Source of the DNA: Fimbriimonadaceae bacterium
GTDB taxonomy: Bacteria > Armatimonadota > Fimbriimonadia > Fimbriimonadales > Fimbriimonadaceae
Reading direction: 5' to 3'
Length of the DNA stretch: 64,000 nt
Assembly (NCBI GenBank): GCA_019638675.1
Contig: JAHBTE010000001.1
Coordinates: 1,830,605 to 1,894,604, forward strand
In this document: positions 4,004-47,164 of the stretch, piece after piece
Numbering within the stretch: the stretch's first letter is position 1
How the letters are laid out: each line of letters opens with the position of its first letter
Notes under the pieces: generated by a model
Databases searched by the model: none
Told to the model about the DNA's origin: nothing
Seen by the model: the letters and a program-made list of their open reading frames with translations, nothing else
Position numbers and translations under genes: made by a program

Positions 4004-4498
4004 ATGAAAATGAAGTGGGGAATTGCCGTTCTGGTTGGTTTATGCTTGGTGGCCTGCGGCCCTAAATCCGACAAAATGGATCCGGATGAAGCGGCAAAGC
4101 AAGCGGGCCTTCGGCGAGACCAGTACTCCCATCAAGGTGAGGGGAATCAGGTTGTCACCGGAGCCGACGGCACCACCACCGCAATCTTGGAAGAGTCGAA
4201 CTTTGCGGACTTTGGCCTGGGTGTTTACCCAGGGGTCGGTGAAAAAAAAGGGAATGCTTATCGGCATACGGCGGGTAACACAGTTACGACTTCATATACT
4301 TTGCATGCTAAAGATGATCCAAAAAAAGTAATCGCCTTTTATGAAACCGAACTAAAAAGCCAAGCACGTTCAGGTGGAGAACTTGGCTCCGTTATTGCTG
4401 GACGGCTTGGAGACAAAAGCGGCATGGTATCGGTTATGCCAGAAGGGGCAACTGGTTCAAAAATTGAAGTTCAGATCATCGAAGAAACCAAAGATTAG
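4004..4498 (+). CDS. Putative lipoprotein of unknown function
   Basis: The 164-residue product starts with a short basic segment, a hydrophobic stretch and a lipobox LVAC at residues 15-18, so it should be lipidated and anchored in a membrane. The mature part has a low-complexity start followed by a mixed alpha/beta region with TTSYTLHAKDDPKKVIAFYE, similar in style to small periplasmic domains that sample a time or sum over residues, but I cannot name the family. It starts one base after the gmhA stop, so it is likely co-transcribed. Confidence 0.75.
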   Translation: MKMKWGIAVLVGLCLVACGPKSDKMDPDEAAKQAGLRRDQYSHQGEGNQVVTGADGTTTAILEESNFADFGLGVYPGVGEKKGNAYRHTAGNTVTTSYTLHAKDDPKKVIAFYETELKSQARSGGELGSVIAGRLGDKSGMVSVMPEGATGSKIEVQIIEETKD

Positions 4499-38105: not shown

Positions 38106-38707
38106 GGGTGGCACGGGTTTTAACCCGTGTACGCATACCTATTTCAACGGCCGGGAAGCTGATGACCAGGGCCAATCTTCGGGGGTGGTGCTTAAGTAAC
38201 GCTTGACTGGATTATTGTGAATGTAAGCAATGCTGTTCTGAATTGCCTCGTCTGTCCACATATTTCGATCGTAGCCTCCTCCTGGTTGCCAGAACTGGTA
38301 AGTAGTTAAACCTCCTTGCTTAACTACGGCACATTGCTCCCTTAATTCTGGATATTGCTTCAAAGCATACAGTGCCACTGGCGCCTTAGTCGCACGTAGG
38401 ATTTTTGATATGGAATAGTGTTCATGATTAGGCAATATGAGGATATGGCAGTGTTCAGGCATTACAACGTAAGCAAGTATTTCGAGATCAAAATCTTTTC
38501 GAACGTTATCCAGATTTTCAACAAAGTATTTAGCGATTTCGGGCATAGCAAGAAACTTATGGCGATTCTTTGTACTAAAAGTTAGTTCGTGAACATGGCC
38601 AGGAATATCAAATGACTTCCGAGTCTTGGCCTTGGCCGGATAAGTCGGGAACACACTTTGATTTTATCCGACAATTTTCTTTGCACTGGTTAAAACCAGT
38701 GCCACCC
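38106..38707. mobile_element. RAYT-REP element: transposase gene bracketed by inverted REP hairpins
   Basis: The left end (38106-38129) is GGGTGGCAC followed by the palindrome CACGGGTTTTAACCCGTG; the right end (38684-38707) is the inverted version with CACTGGTTAAAACCAGTG then CCACCC. The copies differ at one G-C versus T-A pair, and both halves of each palindrome changed together. The transposase gene lies between them. The base tetranucleotide before each hairpin reads GTGG, in the position of the GTAG-type guide of other REPs. Confidence 0.75.
38139..38654 (-). CDS. REP-associated tyrosine transposase (Y1_Tnp)
   Basis: RAYTs are single-domain HUH (Y1) enzymes that cut single-stranded REP hairpins. 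The 171-residue protein has the fold start IPGHVHELTFSTKNR, the HUH motif YVVMPEHCHILI near residues 61-72, the helix SISKILRATKAPVALYAL, and the tail WTDEAIQNSIAYIHNNPVKRYL then PEDWPWSSA, which is diagnostic of this family. The catalytic Tyr is likely the one in QPGGGYDRN. REP hairpins sit on both sides. Confidence 0.92.
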   Translation of the reverse strand: MFPTYPAKAKTRKSFDIPGHVHELTFSTKNRHKFLAMPEIAKYFVENLDNVRKDFDLEILAYVVMPEHCHILILPNHEHYSISKILRATKAPVALYALKQYPELREQCAVVKQGGLTTYQFWQPGGGYDRNMWTDEAIQNSIAYIHNNPVKRYLSTTPEDWPWSSASRPLK

Positions 38708-39575: not shown

Positions 39576-39905
39576 GTGAAAGTTTTGTTTGTCCAGCCAG
39601 AATTGGAGTTTTTGAAGGAGCGTCTCAGCGGGTTTAACGGCCTCACCGCGCGGGGGATGGGGCTGGATGGAAAAGGGCCGTCCACGATCATGCGCGAATC
39701 GCGGGATATGAAGTTCGACGTGGTGGTGACCACCGACCGCTCGCTGCGGTTCCCAATGGGATCAGAAGGCTGGACGTTCGGGATTCTGTTTTTGGAAATC
39801 TCTCCGCTGGACGAAGCGACGTTGACGGAACAACTGGATCGGATTCGGTCGGGGATTCTGGGGGCAAGGGTCGGCGAAGTTTCTACCGTCCGCTGGCCTC
39901 GGTAA
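39576..39905 (+). CDS. Small protein, possibly DUF5615/PIN-like
   Basis: The 109-residue product starts with GTG and reads KVLFVQPELEFLKERL, then MKFDVVVTTDRSLRFP and GWTFGILFLEISPLDE. The order of an N-terminal strand with helix and then a TTD strand turn resembles the DUF5615 PIN-like family, which includes toxin-like proteins, but the first Asp expected near residue 6 is missing. No antitoxin gene is adjacent. Treat as hypothetical. Confidence 0.5.
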   Translation: MKVLFVQPELEFLKERLSGFNGLTARGMGLDGKGPSTIMRESRDMKFDVVVTTDRSLRFPMGSEGWTFGILFLEISPLDEATLTEQLDRIRSGILGARVGEVSTVRWPR

Positions 39906-39925
39906 GACATATTGACCAATTCGCT

Positions 39926-41179
39926 TTATTTTATGAGAACGATTTGATTTAGATCAGTCCCACCAAATCCCCTTAACACATGATCAGCATCAAGTCCACG
40001 AACATCATCATTCATTGTGTTAAAACGTTTGCAATTAAGCAAGTCTATAAACTCAAGAGCCTGATCTTTTGAGATTGATGTATTGTTGACAATTTTTCTA
40101 ATAAGTTGCAACTGCAATTCTGTAGTGCAATCTTCATAATCATGCTTACACCCTAGTAGTCTGTGATAATAAGAAAACCAGGTTTGAAGAAATGTTCCTG
40201 CTTTCAGAAACGCCAAATCAAAGCTAGTGTTACTATCCAAAATCTCAGTTATATGTTTTCTAAAATGATCACTCTTGGAATTTGGTATTGATCTCGTCCC
40301 TTCGTCTGCGAAGTGTATACCAAGGAAAAGGAAGCCCTCAGCGGTAGAACCATTACGAGCACTCTTTTGCCCAGATTTATAGTATTCAATACTCAAATTA
40401 TCTAGAAGCTCAGTAAGTAGAGATTCGGCTTTTGTGGATTGACATTGAGACTCAGTTAAAACTACTATATCATCCACATACCTGATGTAGCCTGGAAATT
40501 CGCGACTCATTGTATCGTCGACGTCCTTTAAAAAGCAGGCCGCCAAATATGGAGCAATAGTAGTGCCTTGAAAGATGCCGTAGGCTCGTGGCCAGAATCT
40601 TTTGTAGTTATGATTTGAGACACCTTTAGATTGACCTGGCCGTTTTGTAAAAGGGTCGATTAGTTTGCAAATTCTTTCCGGAATTCCATCCCAACCCAGG
40701 CGCTCAAACAGTAGGTGCTTGCGTATACTAGGATAATAGTTCTTGAGGTCAGTTTCATAAACGAATTTATTTTGTTTGCACAGATGGCTGACCTTTTGGC
40801 AACAGGCACGTACATCGAATGATTTATCGTTTGTGGAGCGGCTAACACCATACGCATTAGCGTGAATTGTAGGAAAATGACTAGTTAGGACTCTAGTAAT
40901 AACTCGTTGAAATACCAAATCTGTTACGCTTTGTCTTGTAACACCACGGGACTTCATTGTACCATCTTGGCGTTCCTGCCTAATTATTTTTGAAGAGAAT
41001 GACGGCTGGTATATACCAGATAGTAATTTTTCTACACTATTATTTAGTGAGCTTACTGTTAACTTTGAAAGAACTTCTCTTGATTGAGTAAATTTTTCTT
41101 TTCTTAATAATACTATCTCATTTTGAAAGACTGGTAGGGCGAATACATTGTCAAAGTCGAACAAATTACGCCCTATCAA
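39926..41179 (-). CDS. Orphan reverse transcriptase
   Basis: The 417-residue protein has the RT core in order: an N-terminal finger region (KSRGVTRQSVTDLVFQRVI, residues 77-95), motif A ETDLKNYYPSI (142-152), the motif GIFQGTTIAPYLAACFL (201-217), the catalytic YIRYVDDIVVL (231-241), FLFLGIHF (283-290) and a thumb-like tail with FLQTWFSYYHRL. It lacks an HNH endonuclease and a clear group II maturase domain, and no intron boundaries are seen. Motifs do not fit retron or DGR enzymes well, so it is likely a group II-like or 'unknown group' defence-type RT. The DNA is A+T-richer than its neighbours. The start is TTG, coupled to a ten-codon upstream ORF. Confidence 0.88.
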   Translation of the reverse strand: MIGRNLFDFDNVFALPVFQNEIVLLRKEKFTQSREVLSKLTVSSLNNSVEKLLSGIYQPSFSSKIIRQERQDGTMKSRGVTRQSVTDLVFQRVITRVLTSHFPTIHANAYGVSRSTNDKSFDVRACCQKVSHLCKQNKFVYETDLKNYYPSIRKHLLFERLGWDGIPERICKLIDPFTKRPGQSKGVSNHNYKRFWPRAYGIFQGTTIAPYLAACFLKDVDDTMSREFPGYIRYVDDIVVLTESQCQSTKAESLLTELLDNLSIEYYKSGQKSARNGSTAEGFLFLGIHFADEGTRSIPNSKSDHFRKHITEILDSNTSFDLAFLKAGTFLQTWFSYYHRLLGCKHDYEDCTTELQLQLIRKIVNNTSISKDQALEFIDLLNCKRFNTMNDDVRGLDADHVLRGFGGTDLNQIVLIK

Positions 41180-41208
41180 TTTTGGTGGTAGGCCAAGCTT
41201 ATCTGCAT
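41176..41208 (-). other. Ten-codon ORF coupled to the reverse transcriptase start
   Basis: ATG 41208 opens a frame encoding MQISLAYHQN and ending in a TGA that shares three bases with the RT start TTG (TTGA). The gmhA gene uses the same TTGA overlap. It could translationally couple RT synthesis to a short leader. It may also be chance, since the ORF is very short. Confidence 0.35.
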
Positions 41209-41565
41209 TACACCCGGCCCGCCAGCGACAGATTGTTCATCTGTCAATTTTGTGATCTTGATTTTTACTTTCATTTTGTTTTTCAACTTATTATTGCTCC
41301 TAGTATGGCGAATAACGTTTTTATTGTAATCGTAACTGCAGTAATTAGTCTTACGACGCTAAAGCATTTACCCAGGTTGCATCGAAGTTTAATCTCAATC
41401 GACATGAACCATGCCGAAATAATTTGGCATGAGCATTTTGCCAGTAATCCAGCGTCCTGCTTCTCGTTCAACCTAAAGGTACGCGAAAAACGGCGAAGGG
41501 TTGTGACCGTTAGGGATAAATACCTGTTAATTATTGCAGGACAGAATTTACTTTCTGTCTACAAA
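41180..41565. other. Structured, A+T-rich region without a gene between ispG and the reverse transcriptase
   Basis: No convincing gene lies in this 386-base stretch. It holds three hairpins: GACAGAT/ATCTGTC at 41227-41245, ATGCC/GGCAT extended by A-T pairs at 41411-41430, and GACAGAA/TTCTGTC at 41540-41559. The first and last share the GACAGA/TCTGTC stem and bracket the segment. One plus-strand frame is free of stops across the whole stretch (about 128 codons). It sits directly upstream of the RT on the RT strand, where RT-associated template RNAs are usually encoded. Confidence 0.45.
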
Positions 41566-42837
41566 TTACACCAGACTTGGTTCACTCCAAACCCCATCCG
41601 CCTTCAGAAGGTTCACCAATTCTTCTACGCCGTGCTCCTGAGGGATGCCGGACTTGACGACATCTCTTTTCCGATAAAGCGTGATTTTGCCTCCCGCCGC
41701 GCCGACATAGCCGTAATCGGCGTCAGCCATTTCGCCCGGGCCGTTGACAATACAGCCCATCACCGCGATATCCAGCCCCTTGAGGTGGCGCGTGGCGTTG
41801 CGAACCTTGTTCAGCACGCTCGGAAGATCGAACTTGGTGCGCCCGCAACTGGGGCAGGCGATGTATTCCACCTGGGTTTTGCGCAGGTTCATGGCCTGCA
41901 GAATCTCGTAACACGCGGGGATTTCGTTGATCGGGTCTTCGCTCAGGCTCACCCGAATCGTGTCGCCGATTCCTTCTGCGAGCAGGGTAGCGATCCCGGC
42001 GGTGGACTTGATTCGCGCATATTGCCCGTCGCCGGCTTCGGTCACGCCGAGGTGGAGCGGGTAGTTCATGCCTTCTTCATCCAGGCGCATCGCCATCATG
42101 CGGTTGGCGGCAATCATCACGGGTACTCGGCTGGCCTTGGCGGAGATGTTGAGATTGAAGTAGCCATGCTTTTCGCAGATACGAAGGTATTCGAGAGCTG
42201 ATTCCACCAGCCCGCGTGGAGTGTCGCCGTAGGTGATGAGAATTCGTTCGGAAAGCGAACCGTGGTTCACCCCCACACGCATGGCCCGGTCGAATTTTTT
42301 GCAGGCTTCAACAACCGGAACGAAGTCTTCTTCTATCGCGGCGATCTCGTTATTCCATTCGGTTTCCGAATAAGCAAGTTGCGACCGGAGTGCTTCTACA
42401 CTGGTTAAATCTTCTTCCGTTCGGCCTCGCATATCACCGTTGTCTGTGCCGGTTTGCTCGCCACGCGAACCGTGCCGCTTGAACACAAACAGGCCGGGAT
42501 TGACCCGGATTTCATCCACGTATTTGGCGGCTTCAATCGCGATTTTGGTGCCTTGGTGGTGCACGTCGGCGGTCATCGGAACATCTTCGTGCTGTTCACG
42601 CACTTTGGCTTTGATTTCTTCCAGGCAACTCGCTTCGCCGAGGGTGGGAGTAGTGACGCGGACGATTTCTGATCCCGCTTTGTGGAGGGCGATGATCTGC
42701 TCGACGCATGCTTCGATGTTGCGGGTTTCTTCGGTGATCATGCTCTGAACCACCACCGGGTGCCCGTTGCCCATGGTGATGTTGCCCACTCGGCAAGGTT
42801 TCGTGGCGCGGCGCGGGTAGGTGACGTCGAGGTTCAT
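41566..42837 (-). CDS. ispG: 4-hydroxy-3-methylbut-2-enyl diphosphate synthase
   Basis: IspG (GcpE) performs the penultimate step of the MEP isoprenoid pathway with a 4Fe-4S cluster. The 423-residue protein shows [22 protein letters not shown] at the start, [38 protein letters not shown], and the cluster ligands in [12 protein letters not shown] near 330 and [11 protein letters not shown] near 363. It has the two-domain bacterial length with a small insertion near residue 130. Confidence 0.96.
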
Positions 42838-43747: not shown

Positions 43748-43758
43748 CCGGTGAGATT

Positions 43759-44340
43759 TTACTTGAGCGGGTCTTGAGGTTGGAGATAATCGGCTGGCCA
43801 CAGCTTAACGCCCTTGCGGTCAAACTGACCCTGAAAAGCTTGGGCAACTTTATCGAAATCTTTTAGCTTGATTCTTTTTGTGCCGGAATCTGCAAAGGCA
43901 ATGATCCATTCTGGATTCTTGCCAGTCAGGTAAGAACTCCACATCGCAATCTCATTAACATTTTGCGCCTTTGAACCATGATAGGCAGGTAAAAGTGCGC
44001 CATCCACTCCGGCAAGGTTAAAGTTGAATTGCGGCGTAGTTGATATATCTTCAACAGGTTTAAATAAATCATGATTCTTTGTGTAAGGCTCTAGCACGAC
44101 TCGTACTGCTGGCATTCCCGAAGCTGGTGGATAGAGATCGTCGTAATCGGCTTGATAGATTATTGTGCCAGTAGCTATCTGCTTAACGTTAATTAGTGCC
44201 CGAATTCTCTTGCCATTTGAATGATCATGTGGGAGTATTGAGGGCAAAACGAGTAGCGCTGAAATTCCGATCATGATTAACGAGATCAGAATTACTGTCC
44301 AGATCGATATTTCTCCAGATTTTAGCGTCGTTTGTTTCAC
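43759..44340 (-). CDS. Paralogue array member 6 (last), membrane-anchored protein
   Basis: The 193-residue protein has an N-terminal membrane helix (about 12-33) and an external part with the array consensus: NVKQIATGTIIYQADYDDLYPPAS near 48-72, PQFNFNLAGVDGAL near 104-117, and a C-terminal QFDRKGVKLWPADYLQPQDPLK. The layout resembles H-X9-DG/pseudopilin-type exported proteins of the Armatimonadota and Planctomycetes, but the GFTLIE-type prepilin cleavage site is absent. Its start overlaps the stop of the previous gene (ATGA). Function unknown. Confidence 0.78.
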   Translation of the reverse strand: MKQTTLKSGEISIWTVILISLIMIGISALLVLPSILPHDHSNGKRIRALINVKQIATGTIIYQADYDDLYPPASGMPAVRVVLEPYTKNHDLFKPVEDISTTPQFNFNLAGVDGALLPAYHGSKAQNVNEIAMWSSYLTGKNPEWIIAFADSGTKRIKLKDFDKVAQAFQGQFDRKGVKLWPADYLQPQDPLK

Positions 44341-44915
44341 TTTTTCTCCTTCTGCTGGTCATGGTCTGGGAGGTAGTCAGGTGGGAAAAGCTTGACTCCT
44401 TTTCGGTCGAATTGATACGCAAGATGACGGAGAAAATCGGTTTCGTTAAGGGAGTAGGACTCGGAGTATCTTAGAAATTTGCTTCCAATATCCACGCCAA
44501 ATACCTTGTTCAGTTCTAAATCAGAAATATAGAAAACCACGACCTCATTGGTTTCAATTGACTTATATCCGAATGGGGAAAGAACGTTTTCTGAACTCAC
44601 TCCTGCTAAGTTAAAGTTGAAGTGTGGCTCCGAGAAGTTTTCCGCAGCTTGCCAGCTTATGTCGCTTGATTTGCCAGACGCGTAAGGTTGCAGTAGCGCC
44701 CGGACTGTTGCCATCGATGAAGCGGGCATGAACACACCCTCAAAATCGTTCATGTACAAGGAATTTGCATTGGAAAGGTTCCGTAACTGGAGCCTAGCTT
44801 GATTAGATCGAGCCGCCGATTTGGCACTTCTGAAAATATGCGGCATATCCGTTACGAAGAACAAGATTGTAGCGATGCCAACAAACCAGAGTAAGAATTT
44901 GAGAAAAGGTTTCAT
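44337..44915 (-). CDS. Paralogue array member 5, membrane-anchored protein
   Basis: The 192-residue protein is a diverged copy: N-terminal helix near 5-22, LRNLSNANSLYMNDFEGVFMPASSMATVRALLQPYA near 45-80, PHFNFNLAGVSSENVLSPFG, and the C-terminal YQFDRKGVKLFPPDYLPDHDQQKEKK. The QIA...DYDD core is weakest in this copy, while the FNFNLAGV and DRKGV...PDYL blocks are kept, so those are probably the structural core. Confidence 0.76.
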   Translation of the reverse strand: MKPFLKFLLWFVGIATILFFVTDMPHIFRSAKSAARSNQARLQLRNLSNANSLYMNDFEGVFMPASSMATVRALLQPYASGKSSDISWQAAENFSEPHFNFNLAGVSSENVLSPFGYKSIETNEVVVFYISDLELNKVFGVDIGSKFLRYSESYSLNETDFLRHLAYQFDRKGVKLFPPDYLPDHDQQKEKK

Positions 44916-45490
44916 TTAAGGGGATCCTTGTTGGCAAGATAGTTGGGTGGGAAGAGCTTGGCACCCTTTCGATCATATTGATAGGAGAGCCTTCGGAAAA
45001 ACTCTGAGTTAACGTCGTTTCCGTTCTTACTGCCGCCCAAATACCACTTAAGTCTGGAATCCCGTCCCCAACCGCATGTCGCATACCGATTTTCTTTTGT
45101 ATCAAAAATGTAACACACAATTGGTTCTTCGGAGAGAAATTCGTAACCCAGTGGGTCGGGAAGTGAACTATACGAAAGCTCAACGCCGGCAAGATTGAAG
45201 TTGAATTGCACTTCAGAATAGCCCTTATCTGATTTCCAATTGTGATCAGTTTTTTCGTAAGGTGAAAGCAGTGCTCGGAATGTTGGCATAGATGATGCCG
45301 CAGGCAATCGGTCATCATAGTCGCTGGCATAAATTTGGATAGATTTTTGAAGTGACCAAAAAATCCTGTGGGGATACACTTGCCGGTTTGCCGCCCGGGC
45401 ACTGGCAAAAAGATGGAATCCTTCGAACCCGCAAATTCCTACGACGCAGGTAAGCAGTGTCCAGCCAACAATTTTGAGCAGTCGGTTCAT
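44912..45490 (-). CDS. Paralogue array member 4, membrane-anchored protein
   Basis: The 192-residue copy has a membrane helix near 7-25, SLQKSIQIYASDYDDRLPAASSMPTFRALLSPYEKT near 45-80, VQFNFNLAGVELSYSSLPDPLG and the C-terminal YQYDRKGAKLFPPNYLANKDPLK. It is coupled to its neighbours by ATGA overlaps on both sides. Confidence 0.76.
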   Translation of the reverse strand: MNRLLKIVGWTLLTCVVGICGFEGFHLFASARAANRQVYPHRIFWSLQKSIQIYASDYDDRLPAASSMPTFRALLSPYEKTDHNWKSDKGYSEVQFNFNLAGVELSYSSLPDPLGYEFLSEEPIVCYIFDTKENRYATCGWGRDSRLKWYLGGSKNGNDVNSEFFRRLSYQYDRKGAKLFPPNYLANKDPLK

Positions 45491-46059
45491 TTGTTCTCCT
45501 TCAATGGGTCTTGGTCGGCAAGATAGTCGGGCGGCAAAAGCTGGATTCCTTTTCGGTCGAATTGCGGGGCCAACAGATTCTGATATTCAGCGTGCTTTGC
45601 TGCTGGATAGAACTTCACCGAAGAATCAGCATGAGCGACAAGAAAGCCATAAGGAGCAGCAACTACGGCTGAGTACCAAATCGCCACTTCGTTCGGTTCA
45701 CGTTGCTCCGTGCCTGGAAACGGTGGCAGGGTGTTCTTCACTCCCGCGAGATTGAAGTTAAACTGAGGGATAGTAGTATATTTTTTGTAGGGCAAAAAGC
45801 TTTCCTTTCTCTTCACATAAGAATTCAGTTGTGCTCGGAGAGTTAGCATGCTGGATGCAAGGGGGAAAGTCTCATCATTATCGATTGCGTAAATTATTAT
45901 TGCGGTTGCTATTTGTTTTTGGTTAGAAAGGCATTGGGTTTTGGATGCAACCGTGTGCCCAGTCAGCATTGGCCCAGCGATCCAAGCCACTACTGGAATC
46001 AGAATGATGGCGACGACTACGATTGCGGTTAAATCTCGTTTGCTAATAAGGCTGTTCAT
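45487..46059 (-). CDS. Paralogue array member 3, membrane-anchored protein
   Basis: The 190-residue copy has a helix near 10-30, CLSNQKQIATAIIIYAIDNDETFPLASSMLTLRAQLNSYVK near 42-83 (the form closest to the pseudopilin-type CxSNxKQI), PQFNFNLAGVKNTLPPFPGTEQ and PQFDRKGIQLLPPDYLADQDPLKENK. A short conserved middle block VAIWYSAVVAAPYGFLVAHADS corresponds in the other copies. Confidence 0.77.
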   Translation of the reverse strand: MNSLISKRDLTAIVVVAIILIPVVAWIAGPMLTGHTVASKTQCLSNQKQIATAIIIYAIDNDETFPLASSMLTLRAQLNSYVKRKESFLPYKKYTTIPQFNFNLAGVKNTLPPFPGTEQREPNEVAIWYSAVVAAPYGFLVAHADSSVKFYPAAKHAEYQNLLAPQFDRKGIQLLPPDYLADQDPLKENK

Positions 46060-46622
46060 TTCATCTCCTTTAGCGGGTCTTGGTCGGCGAGGTAATCGGC
46101 AGGCATGAGAACAACGCCTCTGCGGTCGAATTGTCCTTCAAACAATGCGAGAACTTCGGCATATTTTTCTGGTCGGTAACTTTTAGCACTCGAATCTGCC
46201 CGGCTAACCACGATCCCCTTGTACTGTCCATAAACGTGATTGCTCCACACCGCGACTTCGGTGGGTTCCAGTTGCTTGGTTCCAGGGTAAGGCGTGAGTG
46301 CCGAAGTGACTCCGGCAACGTTGAAATTAAACTGCGGGCGGCCAAATCTTGATTCCCGGGAATCAAAGAATTGACTGTTCTTAATATAGGGCATGAGCAC
46401 CGCTCGAGTGCATGGCATTGCGCTGGTAGCAAGAAACCGCTCGTCGTAATCGGATTGATAGATAAGAGTTGTTATTGCGATTTGCTTGACATTGGATAAG
46501 GCGTAGGTTGTACTTGAAATACTAGGTTCCGATTGTATTGGAAAGACAAGAATGAGAACGAACGCAAGAATTACGGCAAATGCAAGTATTCCTGTGATGA
46601 CTTCTTTATAAGCTGAATTCAT
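46056..46622 (-). CDS. Paralogue array member 2, membrane-anchored protein
   Basis: The 188-residue copy has a helix near 8-29, ALSNVKQIAITTLIYQSDYDERFLATSAMPCTRAVLMPYIK near 41-81, PQFNFNVAGVTSALTPYPGTKQ and GQFDRRGVVLMPADYLADQDPLKEMK. It is most similar to member 3 and member 1 at its ends. Confidence 0.77.
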   Translation of the reverse strand: MNSAYKEVITGILAFAVILAFVLILVFPIQSEPSISSTTYALSNVKQIAITTLIYQSDYDERFLATSAMPCTRAVLMPYIKNSQFFDSRESRFGRPQFNFNVAGVTSALTPYPGTKQLEPTEVAVWSNHVYGQYKGIVVSRADSSAKSYRPEKYAEVLALFEGQFDRRGVVLMPADYLADQDPLKEMK

Positions 46623-47164
46623 TTCGTCTCCTTGAGTGGGTCTTGGTCTGCGAGGTAATCGGCGGGCATGAGAACAACGCCTCGCCTATCAAATTGTGGT
46701 TCTAACGCTTTTAACAATTCTAAGCTCGTGAGTGTGCCACGTCCGTTAGCTAAGTAATAGACAAAGAATTCATCCTGTTTTTTTGGATTCCGAGCCCATG
46801 TTACGATCACCCGACTTGGTTCTACTTTGATACTTCCAGGATAGGGAGGTGCACCCATCGAAACGCCAGCAAGGTTGAAATTGAAGTTGGCTTTTCCTGC
46901 GTGTATCCCCGGTTCATAGACTGTCTTATTTTTGACATATTCATAAGTAAGTGCTCGGAGAGTCTTTTCGGAGGAGGCAGCAGGAAATGTATCGTCAAAG
47001 TCCGAAGCATAAATGATTAGAGCCGTAGCTAAGCTGGCGTATCGACTCTCGCTGCGATCCATCCCTTCATCTGCCACTTTGGGCTGGGCAAAAACCGGAA
47101 ACAGAAGTGCGCTAAGAACCCCAATTACTAAAACCCATACTAGAATGTGGCGGATCGTTGTCAT
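46619..47164 (-). CDS. Paralogue array member 1 (first), membrane-anchored protein
   Basis: The 181-residue first gene has a helix near 5-25 ending in FAQ, so it may be a cleaved signal peptide here rather than an anchor. It continues SLATALIIYASDFDDTFPAASSEKTLRALTYEYVK near 45-80, ANFNFNLAGVSMGAPPYPGSIK and PQFDRRGVVLMPADYLADQDPLKETK. AGGA lies six bases before its ATG. The array probably starts from a promoter in the 92-base gap after accA. Confidence 0.77.
   Translation of the reverse strand: MTTIRHILVWVLVIGVLSALLFPVFAQPKVADEGMDRSESRYASLATALIIYASDFDDTFPAASSEKTLRALTYEYVKNKTVYEPGIHAGKANFNFNLAGVSMGAPPYPGSIKVEPSRVIVTWARNPKKQDEFFVYYLANGRGTLTSLELLKALEPQFDRRGVVLMPADYLADQDPLKETK

Follow-up and report, generated by a model that had tools for sequence, protein, structure and literature searches.

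A stand-alone reverse transcriptase, probably group II-like, and its leader in a variable chromosomal hotspot of a Fimbriimonadaceae bacterium

The analyzed window, a 64,000-nt stretch of a Fimbriimonadaceae contig, carries a lone reverse transcriptase (RT) gene between ispG and a gene encoding a 109-aa protein. With confidence about evenly divided, we regard it as an accessory antiphage gene of the G2L type, which was horizontally swapped and has a leader RNA as its probable partner. The enzyme probably descends from group II introns and acts as a previously undescribed defence protein, a role suggested by its genomic context. The features of the locus are as follows (positions in the window).

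39576..39905, plus strand: convergent gene for a 109-aa protein, one border of the hotspot (ORF, sister genomes)
39906..41565, no strand: whole variable insert between the ispG stop and the end of the 109-aa gene, GC 0.38 against 0.57 in both flanks (sister-genome comparison, composition)
39926..41179, minus strand: stand-alone RT of 417 aa (ORF, Pfam, alignment, structure model)
41176..41286, minus strand: candidate leader ORF of 36 aa that has a ribosome-binding site, AGGAG (its stop overlaps the RT start, TTGA)
41180..41565, minus strand: 386-nt A+T-rich leader that separates the RT start from the ispG stop and may be a structured RNA (folding, genome search)
41566..42837, minus strand: ispG, core gene, other border of the hotspot (ORF, sister genomes)

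The RT gene and its relatives

The RT reading frame was open and intact (436 aa from stop to stop). The start codon was TTG, and the next in-frame TTG, at codon 6, is a possible alternative. The initial annotation had described a full RT core without a maturase or endonuclease domain, and both parts of this description held. RVT_1 was matched as an uninterrupted domain (Pfam, E 4.9e-12), and the residues D144, Q204-G205, and Y234-V235-D236-D237 were found where they had been placed and were invariant in an alignment of the window RT with its three relatives. The core was followed by thumb-like helices at approximately 304-366 and by a short C-terminal tail, and Pfam matched neither GIIM nor an endonuclease domain in the protein. 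The gene was present as one copy in the genome. Its base composition was indeed unlike that of its neighbors, with a GC content of 0.38 versus 0.57 in the flanks and a GC3 of 0.32 versus 0.69 in ispG. The A+T-rich island noted around the gene was confirmed, and it also covers the non-coding 386 nt that precede the RT (41180-41565).

Three relatives, L002, L003, and L004, stood out among 291 genomes of the phylum. They showed 32% (216 aa), 25%, and 24% identity to the window RT over the core, respectively, and came from the same bacterial family as the window and from different genera. Scores with a profile built from the four sequences were 469-611 bits for the members, and the best RT outside the group reached 139 bits. 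The three relatives were likewise lone, A+T-rich genes with long non-coding DNA upstream. Searches of IMG/VR and GTDB 220 returned distant RTs only, with no close relatives, and no close relatives were found among plasmids or phages. Further members were also not found in 274 genomes of the class to which a Halomonas genome belongs, where the best score was 132 bits versus 469-611 for members. Since the RT was present in one of the eight genomes of the genus and its relatives in three of the 291 genomes of the phylum, the gene is accessory.

The hotspot and the leader

The gap that separates ispG from the 109-aa gene is clearly a hotspot of variable genes, in which sister genomes carry different cargo. 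In the window genome, the gap measured 1667 bp and the RT with its 386-nt leader made up its whole content, whereas the site was empty in two sisters (gaps of 71 bp in G153 and 135 bp in G152). The gap of 1779 bp in G154 contained a toxin-antitoxin-like DUF433/DUF5615 pair and a 307-aa orphan, that of 2096 bp in G157 contained a frame-disrupted DUF6119/TIGR04141 gene (461 + 73 aa; L080:4211-5848), whose protein had no PADLOC match, and that of 975 bp in G151 contained a Y1 (REP) transposase. In G156, a 630-aa AriA/OLD/GajA-like AAA ATPase was encoded directly after ispG (L084:1764-3656), with scores of 186 bits for PADLOC AriA and 214 bits for AAA_15, and the 109-aa gene was not found. The GC content of the inserts was 0.38-0.44 versus 0.50-0.60 in the flanks. 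The defence-type content of the hotspot thus comprised one strong and one toxin-antitoxin-like occupant, and, judged from its sequence, only the AriA/OLD-like ATPase strongly resembles a known defence family. Should the site hold self-contained functions, the leader and the RT would form a unit, as they are the sole occupants here.

A trace of exchange was detected in the middle of the G154 insert, where 36 nt of the end of the 109-aa gene (94%) were joined directly to a second ispG 3' end (L078:4861-5075). This second end, of 156 nt, was only 88% identical to the ispG of G154 itself. Such a scar is the trace expected if recombination within the flanking genes brought in a second allele from a relative. 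G157 retained an ispG remnant in a more decayed state (L080, approximately 4033-4116).

Two neighbors named in the initial annotation were reconsidered. The gene read as small and PIN-like is the 109-aa gene at 39576-39905, and this reading was abandoned, as the gene matched nothing in Pfam, PADLOC, NCBIfam, or PHROGs. It was present at a good score in six of the eight genomes of the genus and is a flanking gene rather than cargo. The REP transposase described as adjoining the RT is real (Y1_Tnp at 38139-38654, Pfam), but 1.3 kb, including a phyH gene, separate it from the RT. Separately, the 307-aa orphan of G154 (L078:5071-5994) is a candidate defence gene, which matched PHROG 23933 (E 7.5e-14), a family with no function assigned there, and had no match in Pfam, NCBIfam, or PADLOC.

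The window leader showed a weak folding signal, with a z of -1.9 for the whole stretch and down to -2.6 in 120-nt windows. Its sequence was unique in the genome and had no Rfam match, and no sigma-70-like promoter was found in it. In the relatives, 620-950 nt upstream of the RT were without a convincing gene, and L002 and L004 had promoter-like sites approximately 410 nt upstream of their RTs. Near the RT, the sequences of the relatives folded more strongly than shuffled ones, with z to -5.4, -3.7, and -2.6. A sequence common to the leaders of the four lone RTs was sought and none was found; the L002 and L003 leaders encode similar short peptides, without statistical support. The overlap of the 36-aa ORF with the RT start may perhaps reflect translational coupling. 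An overlap of a small-ORF stop with the RT start was seen in the window, L002, and L004, which chance could easily explain. Long direct repeats were present in the L003 leader (L074:7627-8528), together with an inverted repeat of CCACCGACTCCACTTCCGC type.

Family assignment and ancestry

Judged by profile scores, the window RT reached the level of no named RT family tested. Among the PADLOC models, it obtained 99 bits with UG4, 93 with UG17, 65 with Drt3a, and 50 with Drt9, whereas true members scored 428 (L050) and 296 (L055) bits with UG17, 334-447 bits with Drt3a, and 355 bits with UG36. The highest defence-database model, PADLOC RT_UG4, also gave up to 147 bits to further RTs from this phylum, including group II RTs, and no fimbrial genes were present beside the window RT. 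As the UG4 and UG17 models are promiscuous across RTs, the top PADLOC matches do not discriminate, and membership in UG4 or UG17 was rejected as non-specific. With the group II model NCBIfam TIGR04416 (cut-off 300 bits), the window RT scored 87.3 bits and a true group II RT (L039) 418 bits. GIIM (PF08388) gave 68 and 60 bits to the controls L005 and L039 and a borderline 22.9 bits to the relative L002 (cut-off 23). Rfam intron RNA domains were detected beside all five group II RTs taken as controls from this phylum. No such domain was detected in the window between 36000 and 44000 at E up to 1, nor at the loci of the relatives (L073-L075).

A retron was also rejected: the retron_St85 model gave 49 bits versus a cut-off of 235, the other retron models did not match the window RT at E up to 0.1, and the VTG motif of retrons was absent from the protein. 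A diversity-generating retroelement (DGR) was rejected, as a template/variable repeat pair was not found near the RT. Direct repeats of at least 40 nt between 33000 and 48000 came only from a tandem gene family elsewhere in that span. Such a family, encoding divergent small proteins of approximately 190 aa, was observed at 43749-46706 of the window, with copies mostly about 570-590 nt apart and the common motifs FNFNLAGV and FDRKGVKLFPPDYL-like. Membership in an unassigned RT group, one of the two possibilities raised initially, is supported by these results, as the window RT missed every family cut-off tested and grouped loosely with the three other lone RTs, which are no less unassigned.

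The ancestry of the enzyme was examined using the four-sequence profile, a structure model, motif spacing, and trees. The profile matched G2L4 best in the PDB (135 bits over 355 positions), followed by GsI-IIC (103 bits), a CRISPR RT (89 bits), DRT9 (60 bits), DRT2 (47 bits), and AbiK (34 bits). The closest solved relative is a DNA-repair RT, and not an Abi or DRT protein. The AlphaFold (AF2) model of the window RT (pLDDT 68, pTM 0.67, C-terminal tail below 50; distant RTs only as input) gave a Z score of 25.3 to G2L4, tied with 24.5 to GsI-IIC and 23.9 to a DGR RT, and scores of 21.1 to DRT9 and 19.7 to DRT2.

G2L4 (group II intron-like 4; e.g., PDB 9d4s/9d5x) is a double-strand-break-repair RT of P. 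aeruginosa (PMC12337344). In G2L4 RTs, a 9-aa insertion just before xQG serves as an active-site plug, and YIDD is a distinguishing feature (PMC12337344). The window RT resembles G2L4 in being free-standing, in its similar length, in lacking an endonuclease domain, and in its long segments before xQG and before FLG. The spacing from the first catalytic Asp to QG (within GIFQG in the window RT) was 60 in the window RT, 62 in L002, 63 in L003, and 59 in L004, compared with 62 in G2L4 and 52-55 in group II RTs, and the RT3a insertion before xQG, at the plug position, was 5 to 8 aa longer than in group II RTs (9 aa in G2L4). Long pre-QG segments were also present in the RTs L008, L010, L021, L024/L025, L030, and L038. 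The structural identity to G2L4 was approximately 17-18%, and the arginine pair R190/R191 of G2L4 was not evident by eye in the window RT.

In the trees, which had long branches and left out retron references and most UG classes, the window RT, L002, and L004 were placed together (bootstrap 80-90) outside group II introns. A tree constrained to have these three inside group II was rejected (AU p 0.0056), whereas one with only the window RT there was not (p 0.127). A constrained clade of the lone RTs with G2L4 was neither rejected nor supported (p 0.46), and clades with UG17 and Drt3a (p 0.41) or with DGR RTs (p 0.26) were not rejected. Placement inside group II intron RTs together with a recognizable maturase domain and flanking intron RNA, the combination that the initial annotation had named as a refutation, was thus not observed. 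Overall, the window RT is probably of group II-like kind, L002 having kept a borderline maturase match, and we infer that its core and thumb share a common ancestry with those of group II intron RTs.

Proposed function and alternatives

In the reading that we favor, an accessory antiphage gene, the RT would be a free-standing enzyme whose ancestors belonged to the group II intron-like part of the RT tree. The leader and the RT would be carried as a single-gene cassette in the chromosomal hotspot, whose cargo would be exchanged via recombination in ispG and the 109-aa gene. The RT would synthesize DNA, for which its own leader transcript, or else nucleic acid that appears upon infection, would probably serve as primer or template, and either the DNA product or the engaged enzyme would stop the growth of the phage or the infected cell. 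The long segment before xQG, placed like the G2L4 plug, may keep the enzyme inactive until its substrate is met. Both the partnership with the leader RNA and the action of the plug are suppositions. For the initial proposal of an undescribed defence RT, the support is entirely contextual, namely a hotspot with swapped cargo that includes one known defence type.

The main rival is a domesticated RT like G2L4, acting in double-strand break repair via microhomology end joining with no RNA partner. The profile match, the highest Z score, the insertion at the plug position with the longer segment before FLG, and the constrained clade that was not rejected all point this way. However, the Z score is tied with those of group II and DGR RTs, clades with UG17/Drt3a or DGR were as acceptable as that with G2L4, and the window RT differs from G2L4 in its YVDD (YIDD in G2L4) and its long leader. 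Moreover, its patchy spread in a swap hotspot is unlike that of a housekeeping repair gene, and we consider this explanation unlikely.

An enzyme of the UG/DRT Class 2 type (DRT2/DRT9/DRT10-like), in which the RT repeatedly copies a template in the leader ncRNA, is likewise a doubtful explanation. DRT10 (UG17) is an antiphage RT (PMC12632851), and the window RT shares with it YVDD, accessory occurrence, and non-coding DNA upstream. With DRT2 and DRT9 it shares the arrangement of a lone RT and a candidate, possibly structured, upstream RNA, and its model resembles both; a clade with UG17 and Drt3a was also not rejected. Against this, its UG17, Drt3a, and Drt9 scores are far from the 296-447 bits of true UG17, Drt3a, and UG36 members (93 versus 296-428 bits for UG17), the profile matches to DRT9 and DRT2 are far under that to G2L4, no ncRNA homologue was recognizable, and the insert has neither a SLATT gene nor a second RT.

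It is quite improbable that the RT is what remains of a mobile group II intron after loss of its RNA and is now drifting. In favor of this, the thumb is group II-like, the L002 GIIM match is borderline, and placement of the window RT alone inside group II was not rejected. Against it, the frame is intact and the catalytic residues are conserved, a position of the three-RT clade within group II was rejected, intron RNA was present at five of five control loci but absent from all four loci of the lone RTs, and the same isolated arrangement is found at four unrelated sites.

New chemistry has been discovered time and again in domesticated bacterial RTs, such as gene synthesis by DRT2, homopolymers by DRT9, telomerase-like repeats by DRT10, and end joining by G2L4. 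The window RT fits no class tested, comes from a little-studied phylum, and is located in a hotspot with other cargo in sisters. As it combines a structural feature common with the repair RT G2L4 and the genomic behavior of a defence gene, it bears on the recruitment of G2L-type RTs to immunity, and the ispG hotspot is a place to seek new defence genes in the genus. It is conceivable, if rather unlikely, that the four lone RTs represent a new defence class, plug-gated and group II-like, which copies its own leader RNA of approximately 400 nt, moves between strains as a one-gene cassette, and forms a link between RNA-templated DRT enzymes and repair RTs of the G2L4 kind.

Other RTs were observed during the analysis. 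In two genomes of the same bacterial family, an RT (402 and 417 aa, YVDD) stood directly before a gene for a SIR2-like protein of 328 and 367 aa, at L077:3975-6166 and L076:5555-7878, respectively. The two RTs formed one clade (100/100), and the partner genes matched SIR2 models of PADLOC and, weakly, Pfam SIR2_2. From this arrangement, the pair is a possible two-gene defence system. Another RT (L091:758-2116 in G282), with WADD and a QG spacing of 62, was located near tyrosine and serine recombinase genes and weakly joined the G2L4 references in the tree (98/72).
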